35,050 bases of DNA from positions 1 to 35,050 of the forward strand of contig JANZZG010000031.1 in assembly GCA_026419515.1 (NCBI GenBank). The letters run 5' to 3'. Positions 2,897-6,806 of this stretch are shown piece by piece. The notes below the pieces were generated by a model. It made no database searches. It was given only the letters and a program-made list of their open reading frames with translations, and was not told where the DNA came from. Within the stretch, counting starts at the first letter, position 1; the number at the start of each line of letters is the position of its first letter. Source of the DNA: Methylophilaceae bacterium. Lineage in GTDB: Bacteria > Pseudomonadota > Gammaproteobacteria > Burkholderiales > Methylophilaceae. The translations under genes and the position numbers were made by a program.

Positions 2897-3724
2897 ATGC
2901 AGCAACTGCAATCTCTCATCGAAACCGCATACGAGAACCGCGCCGACATCACCCCCGCCAATGCCAGCAAAGAGCTCAAGGAGGCCGTCGCCACGGTACT
3001 GTCCGAGCTGGACGCCGGCCGCCTGCGGGTCGCCACGCGCATCCCGGGAACCCAGCAGTGGGAAACCCATCAGTGGATCAAAAAGGCGGTGCTGCTGTCC
3101 TTCCGTCTGGAAGACAACAAGATGTCGGGCGCCGGCTACACCCACTTTTTCGACAAGGTGCCATCCAAGTTCGCGCATTTTTCGGAAGCCGACTTCCGCG
3201 CCGGCGGCTATCGCGTGGTGCCCAACGCCATGGTGCGGCGCGGCGCCTTCATCGGCAGAAACGTGGTGCTGATGCCATCCTATGTCAATATCGGCGCTTA
3301 TGTGGACGAGGGCACCATGGTGGATACCTGGGCTACGGTCGGCTCCTGCGCGCAGATCGGCAGGAACGTGCACCTGTCCGGGGGGGTGGGCATCGGCGGG
3401 GTGCTGGAACCGGTGCAGGCCAGTCCTACCATCATCGGCGACAACTGCTTCATCGGTGCCCGTTCGGAAGTGGTGGAAGGCGTGGTGGTGGAAGATAACT
3501 GCGTGATTTCCATGGGCGTCTATATCGGCCAGTCCACCAAGATCTACGACCGCGAAACCGGCGAAATCCATTATGGCCGCGTGCCGGCCGGCTCGGGGGT
3601 GGTGAGTGGCAACCTGCCTTCCAAGGATGGCAAATATAGCCTCTATTGCGCGGTGATCGTCAAGAAGGTGGACGAAAAAACGCTCTCCAAGGTTGGCATC
3701 AATGAACTGCTGAGAGGAATTTGA
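2897..3724 (+). CDS. dapD: 2,3,4,5-tetrahydropyridine-2,6-dicarboxylate N-succinyltransferase
   Basis: DapD transfers succinyl from succinyl-CoA to tetrahydrodipicolinate in the succinylase branch of diaminopimelate and lysine synthesis in the cytoplasm. The 275-residue length is typical. An N-terminal helical domain (1-100) is followed by a left-handed beta-helix with hexapeptide repeats (about 110-225), for example [20 protein letters not shown] and [14 protein letters not shown], and a C-terminal strand ending NELLRGI. A Shine-Dalgarno AAGGA at 2886-2890 supports the start. The stop TGA overlaps an ATG at 3724. The last 50 bases of the gene are duplicated 143 bases downstream. The sister enzyme DapE is encoded three real genes later. 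Confidence 0.97.
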
Positions 3725-3736
3725 TGACCTTTGCAC
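3675..3736 (+). repeat. Direct repeat copy 1 (dapD 3' end, SD and start codon)
   Basis: These 62 bases cover the last 50 bases of dapD with its stop, an AGAGGA ribosome site and the following ATGACCTTTGCAC. They recur at 3818-3879 with one difference (A3706 versus G3849). The offset between copies is 143 bases. Confidence 0.95.
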
Positions 3737-3867
3737 TCCAGGTTCGCAAAGAGCGTTTTTCGGCGCAGGCTAACCTTGGCCCCGCCAAGGTTAAGCCGCT
3801 TGGCGGCGGCCGTAGCCAAAAAACGCTCTCCAAGGTTGGCATCAATGAGCTGCTGAGAGGAATTTGA
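3724..3867 (+). CDS. 47-codon reading frame created by the dapD-tail duplication
   Basis: A frame opens at ATG 3724, overlapping the dapD stop, and runs through the inserted 81 bases into the second copy of the dapD tail. It ends at TGA 3865-3867, again overlapping the ATG of the Uma2 gene. It would encode 47 residues that begin [12 protein letters not shown] and end with the DapD C-terminus [15 protein letters not shown]. The duplicated AGAGGA site lies six bases before the ATG, so translation is plausible. It has no recognisable function. It may be an accident of the duplication that happens to keep the ribosome moving between dapD and the Uma2 gene. Confidence 0.3.
   Translation: MTFALQVRKERFSAQANLGPAKVKPLGGGRSQKTLSKVGINELLRGI
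3750..3829. repeat. Nested inverted repeats in the segment inserted between dapD copies
   Basis: An outer pair of arms (AGAGCGTTTTT at 3750-3760 and AAAAACGCTCT at 3819-3829) encloses an inner perfect 10-bp hairpin with a CCC loop (TAACCTTGGC at 3771-3780 and GCCAAGGTTA at 3784-3793). The right outer arm is itself part of the duplicated dapD tail. The structure resembles a small palindromic element or a template-switch product. No transposase or target-site duplication of classical kind is seen. Confidence 0.75.
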
Positions 3868-3879
3868 TGACCTTTGCAC
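3818..3879 (+). repeat. Direct repeat copy 2 (dapD 3' end, SD and start codon of the Uma2 gene)
   Basis: This is the second copy of the 62-base repeat. It now supplies the ribosome site (AGAGGA) and the ATG (3867) of the Uma2 gene, and the first residues MTFA of that protein are encoded inside it. Confidence 0.95.
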
Positions 3880-4426
3880 AAACCCGACCTGCCACTTACG
3901 AGGATTTGTTCGATCTGCCGGAAAACATCGTGGGCGAGATCGTGAACGGCCGCCTGGTCACGCACCCGCGCCCGGCGCCACGGCATGCCCGTGCCTACTC
4001 AGCCCTCGGTGGCCACATCTGGGGTCCTTTCGACCGCGGACAGGGTGGGCCGGGGGGCTGGTGGATACTGGACGAGCCAGAGCTGCATCTCGATGCCGAC
4101 ATTCTGGTGCCCGACCTCGCCGGCTGGAAGCGCGAGCGCATGCCCGAATTGCCCGACACCGCCTGGTTTTCCCTGGCGCCCGACTGGGTGTGCGAAATCC
4201 TCTCGCCCGCAACCGCCCAGTGCGACCGCGCCGAAAAACTCCCACTGTATGCCCGCCACGGTGTCAAACACACCTGGCTGGTGGATCCCGATCTCAAGAC
4301 ACTGGAGGTGTTCGAAAACCGTGGCGGCAAGTGGCTGCTGCTCACCGTGCTGGAGAACGACGCACCGGTCAGCCAGCCGCCGTTCGACGCCATTTCGTTC
4401 GATTTGTCTTCGCTATGGGCGGAATG

Positions 4427-4427
<1 letters not shown>
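3867..4427 (+). CDS. Uma2-family (DUF820) PD-(D/E)xK nuclease-like protein
   Basis: The 186-residue protein has the Uma2 fold pattern: an N-terminal GEIVNGRLV (23-31), DADILVPDLAGW (76-87) giving the motif Asp83, VCEILSP (108-114) giving Glu110, then DRAEKLPLYARHGVKHTWLVDP (120-141). These match the restriction-endonuclease-like core of the family. Members are common in cyanobacteria and scattered in other phyla, and their biological role is unsettled. The ATG at 3867 is preferred; a TTG immediately before it (3864) is also in frame. The gene sits inside a conserved lysine-biosynthesis cluster, just after the duplicated dapD tail, which suggests it is an accessory insertion. Its stop overlaps the start of the next gene (TGATG). 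Confidence 0.85.

Positions 4428-6806
<2,379 letters not shown>

Follow-up and report, generated by a model that had tools for sequence, protein, structure and literature searches.

A small folded insertion behind dapD of a Methylophilaceae bacterium and its relatives at duplicated gene ends in betaproteobacteria

In this study, we analyzed a 35,050-nt stretch of the genome of a Methylophilaceae bacterium (GenBank assembly GCA_026419515.1, contig JANZZG010000031.1, positions 1 to 35,050 of the forward strand; hereafter the window), in which the end of the gene dapD occurs twice, on the two sides of an 81-nt insert (3737-3817). Our analyses suggested that this feature probably arose by insertion of a member of a betaproteobacterial family of mobile elements that are small, structured and non-coding; no described family could be matched to it. 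The shared part, a core of 50-75 nt within the family (TTTCGG...AGCC), is, as far as sequence comparison reaches, dispersed over many genes, genera and families of betaproteobacteria. Because, in most copies, the stretch from GAAAA to past the stop is present twice, the host gene ends in an intact tail of its own and the other copy is displaced downstream.

Duplicated dapD end and folded insert

The host gene dapD (2897-3724; TIGR00965, 2.2e-141), which lies on the plus strand like all features described here as far as the next gene of the chain, continues into the first of the two copies of its end. The two copies, tail 1 (3675-3736) and tail 2 (3818-3879), form a direct repeat of 62 nt with 98% identity, which takes in the last 50 nt of dapD with the stop, a ribosome site, and the ATG and first four codons of the next gene; the sole mismatch, GAA/GAG, is synonymous (both Glu). 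An earlier note, made from the letters of this DNA without database searches, had reported such a repeat with one change, including the dapD stop, the ribosome site and the ATG, and we recovered it as described. It had also spoken of a 143-bp duplication; the duplication stands, and the size does not, since the repeated unit measures 62 bp and 143 is the spacing of the two copies.

The duplicated unit starts at the target site GAAAAAA (3674-3680, Glu-Lys codons). In the insert, a 13-nt spacer (3737-3749) between repeat and arm is followed by the left arm AGAGCGTTTTT (3750-3760), 11 nt perfectly complementary to the repeat start at 3676-3686 and to the same stretch of tail 2, which was seen both as inverted repeats and as the outer stem of the DNA and RNA folds, and which overlaps the TTT of the core. 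The core (3758-3817, TTTCGG...GTAGCC), delimited by pattern and BLAST matches and by folding, comprises a GGC/GCC stem, a GNA/GNA internal loop, a second GGC/GCC stem and two hairpins. Hairpin 1 (3771-3793, with 10 bp between 3771-3780 and 3784-3793) varies in sequence among copies with compensating changes according to the stem counts, and hairpin 2 (3795-3807) reads GCCGC TTG GCGGC. Tail 2 opens with AAAA fused to the AGCC of the core. The 81-base insert with a 10-bp hairpin and a tail-complementary arm is thus what the earlier note had said it was.

The dapD stop TGA (3722-3724) overlaps the ATG at 3724-3726 by one base. From this duplicated start codon an open reading frame of 47 codons (ORF2, 3724-3867) leads through the core into tail 2 and ends with TGA at 3865-3867, having one base in common with the ATG at 3867 of the following gene, so that the claimed TGATG junctions on both sides and the open frame between them were read as such. 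The following gene had been named yffB; it is in fact a Uma2-family gene (3867-4427; PF05685, 6e-22), the next in the coupled chain, and an ArsC-family gene of yffB type (profile match) comes after it at 4424-4774.

The core with its arm folds into an outer stem, the GNA/GNA internal loop between the GGC/GCC stems and the two hairpins, with z scores of -3.5 as DNA and -3.6 as RNA and 0 of 200 shuffles as good. Among 91 non-redundant cores, the consensus pairs were kept in 98% of cells, compared with 92% for shuffled partners, and hairpin 1 had a stem of at least 7 pairs in 67 of the 91 compared with 9 of 1820 shuffles. The core can, by these predictions, fold as a three-way junction.

Distribution and host genes of the core

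A search for further copies of the insert in the same genome, proposed by the earlier note, had a positive result: with the 205-nt region as query, the inner ~64 nt was met at six other places of the window's genome with E below 0.01, three of them in tandem behind argF, one at the ftsW|murG junction, one beside tRNA-Phe and one partial. The copy beside tRNA-Phe (L005, 1-250) is flanked by a truncated tRNA-Phe copy and by the intact tRNA-Phe. A partial core (L006, 1501-1552) lies within a reading frame near a contig end, with no duplicated flank.

BLAST detected the core in 7 of 41 relatives, the window's genome counted. A strict pattern matched in 37 of 187 Methylophilaceae genomes, belonging to 11 of 24 genera, and the reversed pattern used as control gave 0 matches; one of the 37, G165, has a single match that on inspection seems fortuitous, and in some of the 37 all copies are of an intergenic class that lacks duplications. 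These intergenic copies (L035, L036, L059-L062 and similar) lie inside larger repeats, TTGCGGCGTAGGCTAACCTTTAGG...CCAAAGAAGAGGGCACCC. At least 116 stretches of named genomes match the strict pattern as well. Among the 80 matches listed by name, 71 are betaproteobacterial (names as read), 5 are named by phylum only, 1 as 'bacterium', 2 as 'Gammaproteobacteria' and 1 as a 'Rhizobium' metagenome bin. In a sample of 369 genomes of the class (365 from other orders, 3 others of the same order, and the window's genome), the pattern matched the window's genome only and was found in 0 of the 365 from other orders. A plasmid search with a single query, the Paraburkholderia copy L170, and a phage search with a single query, the window copy, gave no match.

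The host genes are unrelated. Ten were named by NCBIfam (argF, ftsW, ccmE, metK, recA, argG, serS, alanine transaminase, mraY and accB), two further ones, dapD and acs, were identified by profile, dps fell below its cut-off, and ARAGORN identified tRNA-Phe and tRNA-Leu(CAA). At two loci (L171, 3954-4280; L211, 5920-6006) elements stand at the AAAA of the anticodon loop of tRNA-Leu(CAA), and the 3' part of the tRNA is present twice.

Common anatomy of the copies

We compared 143 pattern-fitting copies from 128 loci, with flanks of 200 nt on the left and 60 nt on the right and free of N. The constant ends of the core are TTTCGGNGNAGGCT and GCCGNAGCCAAAA. A duplicated flank with a score of at least 14 was found in 110 of the 143 copies and in 2 of 143 with shuffled flanks; judged by this recurrence and by 98% identity over 62 nt, the duplication in the window is not a product of chance. 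In 67 of the 143 copies, compared with 0 of 143 after shuffling, at least 12 of 15 positions of the arm left of the core agreed with the complement of an upstream stretch; often the pairing covers the first ~8-15 nt of the upstream tail copy. GAAAA, of which the dapD target site is the equivalent, opens the arm-matched upstream stretch in 82 of the 90 copies with a clear arm (score of at least 11), against a background of 0.005 per position of the interval searched. The right end reads AGCC|AAAA, where the A's belong to the target GAAAA, which mostly lies in the final codons of a gene.

In 81 of these 90 copies a long upstream frame stops ahead of the core, and 3 have only short frames; the host frame continues into the core in L181 and L200. 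The distance from GAAAA to the stop, 12-112 nt, depends on the gene, and that from stop to core is short (median 26 nt). In 91 of 143 copies the length of the core is divisible by three (p=1e-13). At argF, the arm tracks tail 1 across species, being AAATCGCC/GGCGATTT in G202 and AAATCGTC/GACGATTT in G199. At one locus (L020), the element lies antisense in an apparent murG head, and here the head is the duplicated part. In several argF copies, the first ~12 nt after the right-hand AAAA are altered by indels or shifts and show no arm pairing, and the rest of tail 2 is conserved; this altered start possibly relieves an unstable long palindrome.

Empty and filled sites

Within one genus, the ftsW site is empty in G197, with GAGAA in place of the GAAAA of the others, filled with one unit in G196, where the gene behind ftsW is murG, and filled with two units in G017. 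Likewise, the argF site is empty in G002 and filled in its congener G024. Filled and empty sites in near relatives, the general mark of a transposable element, were thus present at both genes. These sites, together with a core dispersed in many genes, genera and families, bear out the description of the feature as a small mobile palindromic element in the earlier note.

At dapD, where the junction with yffB was compared in relatives, the tail motif is single in all 30 of their loci read, on an exact-motif reading that would miss a decayed second tail. By eye, 25 of the 30 tails reach a yffB-like frame within 4 nt. Among 165 genomes with the dapD tail motif, two motifs on one contig occur only in the window's genome.

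Tandem series of elements occur at argF of the window's genome (G000), ftsW of G017 and accB of G198, and by their arrangement they look like repeated insertion or amplification. At argF of G200 a decayed older core stands behind a newer one, and in G014 a decayed core stands alone at the same site; these loci (L073, L110) bear signs of successive insertions.

Several observations weigh against reading the family as mobile elements that duplicate gene ends. No duplication reached the threshold in 33 of the 143 copies, neither a duplication nor an arm with a score of at least 11 was present in 16, and the intergenic relatives inside larger repeats show no gene-end duplication. The upstream frame passes the core start without a stop in 6 of 90 sites, two of which are tRNA loci, and this reading does not account for the 13-nt spacer of the window copy. 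We saw neither an excised form nor movement and found no enzyme. Moreover, core identity fails to separate transposition within genomes from gene-specific spread, with means of 0.786 for pairs in the same genome (16 pairs), 0.778 for the same gene (501) and 0.753 for neither (6489).

Translational coupling through the element

The earlier note had supposed that the insertion is tolerated because coupling survives. We followed frames from any start codon between -6 and +8 nt of the tail 1 stop, which was feasible in 98 of the 143 copies. At ftsW, the frame is open through the core in all 27 copies (25 loci), where 11.2 were expected with shuffled inserts, and in 21 of the 27 it ends on the start of a long downstream frame. 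Away from ftsW, openness did not clearly exceed what shuffling predicts: the argF frame is open in 9 of 17 copies, against 7.0 expected, and reaches a start in 3, and for the other genes the corresponding numbers are 24 of 54 (19.7 expected) and 9. The difference in openness between ftsW and argF has p about 1e-4, a value which, like the others, is overstated by the non-independence of related genomes. Selection for an open frame is therefore visible at ftsW|murG, where the supposition is supported, and not in the other groups pooled. The dapD copy of the window, with TGATG at both ends, has the arrangement seen at ftsW, and as a single locus it cannot show selection. The general reason for tolerance is that the end of the host gene itself is restored, which also applies to uncoupled genes and tRNA genes.

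Origin of the upstream tail

Tail 1 might be made in place or be brought in with the element. In the Paraburkholderia ftsW locus L191, tail 1 equals the native sequence across 48 nt down to the arm; together with the dapD tails and their one difference, this suggested duplication in place. A further case, the argF of G024, is weak, with 57 of 59 positions identical between its own tails and 55 of 59 from either tail to the congener G002.

At argF of G200 and G202, on the other hand, tail 1, arm, core and short flanks are identical at 165 of 175 positions (94%), compared with 248 of 300 in the preceding 300 nt and, with synonymous changes, 31 of 40 in the following 40 nt. Read in this way, the alignment shows import of the unit as one piece. 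Horizontal transfer of the whole gene was rejected for this pair, as the high identity extends only ~15 nt ahead of the unit and 17 nt beyond it. Codon differences between the two tails in 65 pairs comprised 158 synonymous and 83 nonsynonymous ones, with 199 of 339 at codon position 3, in a count that skips the first 15 nt and to which several pairs contribute few or no codons. For argF alone, the numbers were 56 and 20, a synonymous excess over the ~40% at most which we estimate for simple decay of tail 2 (binomial p=3e-9). A second argF in G202 (L111) carries its own element copy, with a wholly intact native tail behind.

It seems on balance likely, by a modest margin, that ready-made units of new tail, arm and core also pass between species into the same gene. 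Such transfer would make tail 1 an often diverged, mostly synonymous version of tail 2. Against it, in 381 pairs with at least 60% identity to each other upstream, mean tail 1 identity (0.52) lies below that of the gene body (0.72), and tail 2 identity is low too (0.57); because tail 1 is no more alike than the gene body, transfer of the unit is clearly shown for one pair only.

These data also bear on a rather unlikely alternative, namely that the family is purely a set of horizontally spread, gene-specific cassettes, each restoring the gene end from its own attachment (att)-like site and never made in place. The G200/G202 unit, the mostly synonymous tail differences and the second argF of G202, in which the core is followed by a native tail that is intact and diverged, all fit such cassettes. 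The native tail 1 of L191 and the one-base difference of the dapD tails do not, and more than ten host genes would need one lineage each.

Other explanations

Less probable still is a palindrome of the repetitive extragenic palindromic (REP) kind, mobilized on single-stranded DNA by a Y1 transposase of the REP-associated tyrosine transposase (RAYT) or IS200 type. Like REPs and bacterial interspersed mosaic elements (BIMEs), the elements are short chromosomal hairpins without coding capacity, and Y1_Tnp is enriched in element-bearing genomes (21 of 37, compared with 40 of 150 other genomes, p=8e-4), with one match in the window's genome. However, 16 of the 37 element-bearing genomes have no Y1_Tnp match, and genome size and kinship confound the association. 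The REP trait of flanking a Y1 gene was not observed, as the full core stood beside 0 of 20 Y1_Tnp loci (15 element-bearing genomes, some with the intergenic class only), and six loose part-matches of the core there look like chance. In place of the fixed foot tag GTAG/CGTC of REPs, the window core reads GCGCAGGCT, and the base is variable across the 91 cores; the core has two hairpins in a three-way arrangement, and the gene ends are duplicated. Insertion of the IS200 type is not expected to give a long gene-end duplication. RAYT was accordingly rejected as the cognate enzyme, on the weak co-occurrence and the 20 negative flanking tests.

We regard as very improbable a functional, non-mobile structured RNA or intron-like device between coupled genes, which would provide an alternative C-terminus or tune the second gene. 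The open frames in all 27 ftsW|murG copies, the often synonymous tail 2, the guide-like pairing of the arm and the stable RNA fold would suit it. Yet the elements are patchy even inside a genus and occupy uncoupled argF, recA and tRNA sites, and argF tail 2 often has indels right after AAAA, which would break a spliced product. In Rfam, six loci gave nothing relevant, with three sub-threshold microRNA-type matches, all in one locus. An intron model, raised by the guide-like arm, was rejected on the argF indels and the patchy sites.

A local replication accident at dapD alone, by palindrome-driven template switching or slippage and with no mobile element, has very little left in its favor. Such events typically leave nested palindromes and a short tandem duplication behind, and at L191 the arm of the ftsW copy consists of native murG bases whose pairing with the end of ftsW was there beforehand. 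The same core nevertheless occurs in 37 of 187 genomes of the family and in at least 116 further stretches, in unrelated genes and mostly fused to GAAAA. The common core thus refutes template switching or slippage as a complete account, and the term template-switch product, offered by the earlier note, may hold for the origin of the duplication and the arm, where such an event is possible. That the feature is an assembly artefact can practically be dismissed. The sequence of the window's genome is split into 73 contigs, but genomes assembled independently of it, those of named Paraburkholderia, Cupriavidus and Acidovorax isolates among them, have this architecture too.

Proposed insertion route

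Returning to a small mobile element, we tentatively propose that its two ends join the same target, with copying of an arm and duplication of the gene end by the second join; this route is possible rather than probable. Both core ends, read outwards, finish in AAA(A) and would join the same target on opposite strands, the right end at AAAA on one strand and the left end on the other. The left end would copy a short target arm (8-15 nt) and then join a nearby downstream spot matching the arm, and this second join, lying downstream of the first, would duplicate the gene end. Priming at the target by one end and then at a nearby complementary spot by the other would give the observed product, duplication included. 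In L191, the copied arm forms a junction with native DNA already complementary to the target. An insertion with a duplication falling short of the gene end would harm the host gene and disappear.

For an autonomous version, the half-site TTTCGGNGNAGGCTNAC was searched and found in 41 of 187 genomes; in the 30 loci read, ~150 nt each, no larger, gene-holding form was seen, and the off-pattern sites were slightly variant or degenerate cores, most of them with gene-end copies. As to a reverse transcriptase, the host requirement of group II introns and retroelements, no RVT_1 match was detected in the window's genome (G000), estimated to be 93% complete, and across the family RVT_1 occurs in 9 of 37 element-bearing compared with 14 of 150 other genomes (p=0.02).

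Comparison with known elements

Rickettsia palindromic elements (RPEs) are palindromes of 105-146 bp that lie in frame within conserved protein genes, and RNA genes hold them as well (PMC2229807). The present elements resemble them as small palindromic insertions in protein and RNA genes and, going by RPE descriptions, differ in that the core mostly lies behind a restored gene end and leaves the host protein uninterrupted, and in the GAAAA target and the target-complementary arm; with the host frame stopping before the core in most copies, translation inside the host protein is not the rule.

Miniature inverted-repeat transposable elements (MITEs) such as Correia/NEMIS, RUP and ERIC are likewise small, non-autonomous and sometimes within or fused to frames. 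In contrast, the longer outer stem here is target-derived and differs by gene, in place of element-own terminal inverted repeats of 15-30 bp, and the duplication is no TA or short fixed one of 2-9 bp: it mostly starts at or near AAAA, is gene-dependent and tens of bases long, and extends past the gene end (12-112 nt from AAAA to the stop).

Integrative elements restore the 3' end of a target gene or tRNA with their own copy, often a synonymous one. The replacement of a gene end by an element-borne copy is the common trait, whereas the unit of the window measures ~140 bp in total and has no integrase, the family uses many target genes, and structure takes the place of long att identity. An insertion in the mitochondrial atp6 of Allomyces reportedly carries a duplicated carboxy-terminus and encodes a homing endonuclease; there, too, a mobile insertion gives a gene a new terminus and displaces the old one, but the present core holds no gene. 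In the attC sites of integron gene cassettes, an R box GTTRRRY is matched by RYYYAAC, with crossover after the G of GTT; here GTTAAGC is present with GGCTAAC as its partner, and AAAA marks the junction.

The family thus fails the tested defining features of MITEs, REPs and attC cassettes, and mostly those of RPEs. In the open-access literature searched, no description of such a family was found; one may exist elsewhere. If the mechanism proposed above holds, the family would be a kind of its own. It is conceivable, and we put it forward with reserve, that it represents a new class of mobile DNA, in which a folded, gene-less core of ~60 nt inserts at GAAAA by fusing its two A-ended tips to a single target, copies a target-specific arm, duplicates and thereby repairs the host end, lives harmlessly in essential genes and spreads between species as gene-specific recoded ends.

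As a rule, small mobile elements stay out of essential genes or harm them. The present element often stands in the last codons of ftsW, recA, metK, serS and argF, yet these genes are intact by virtue of the second end. Unusual duplications of gene ends in betaproteobacterial genomes, and small overlapping frames there, would find an explanation in this family, and the ftsW|murG copies are a natural test of translational coupling. The family also directs attention to the activity by which a folded 60-nt core is attached to GAAAA and an arm matching the target is copied.

Neighborhood of dapD in the window

Just upstream of dapD lie CRISPR-associated accessory genes, namely a Card1-like CARF nuclease gene (302-1438) and a Cas_NE0113 gene (1709-2815). 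Of the 31 dapD loci read, in which the other next frames were judged by eye and not by Pfam, that of the window's genome alone shows a Uma2 gene between dapD and the yffB-type gene. This Uma2 gene (3867-4427) also keeps TGATG/ATGATG overlaps on both sides.
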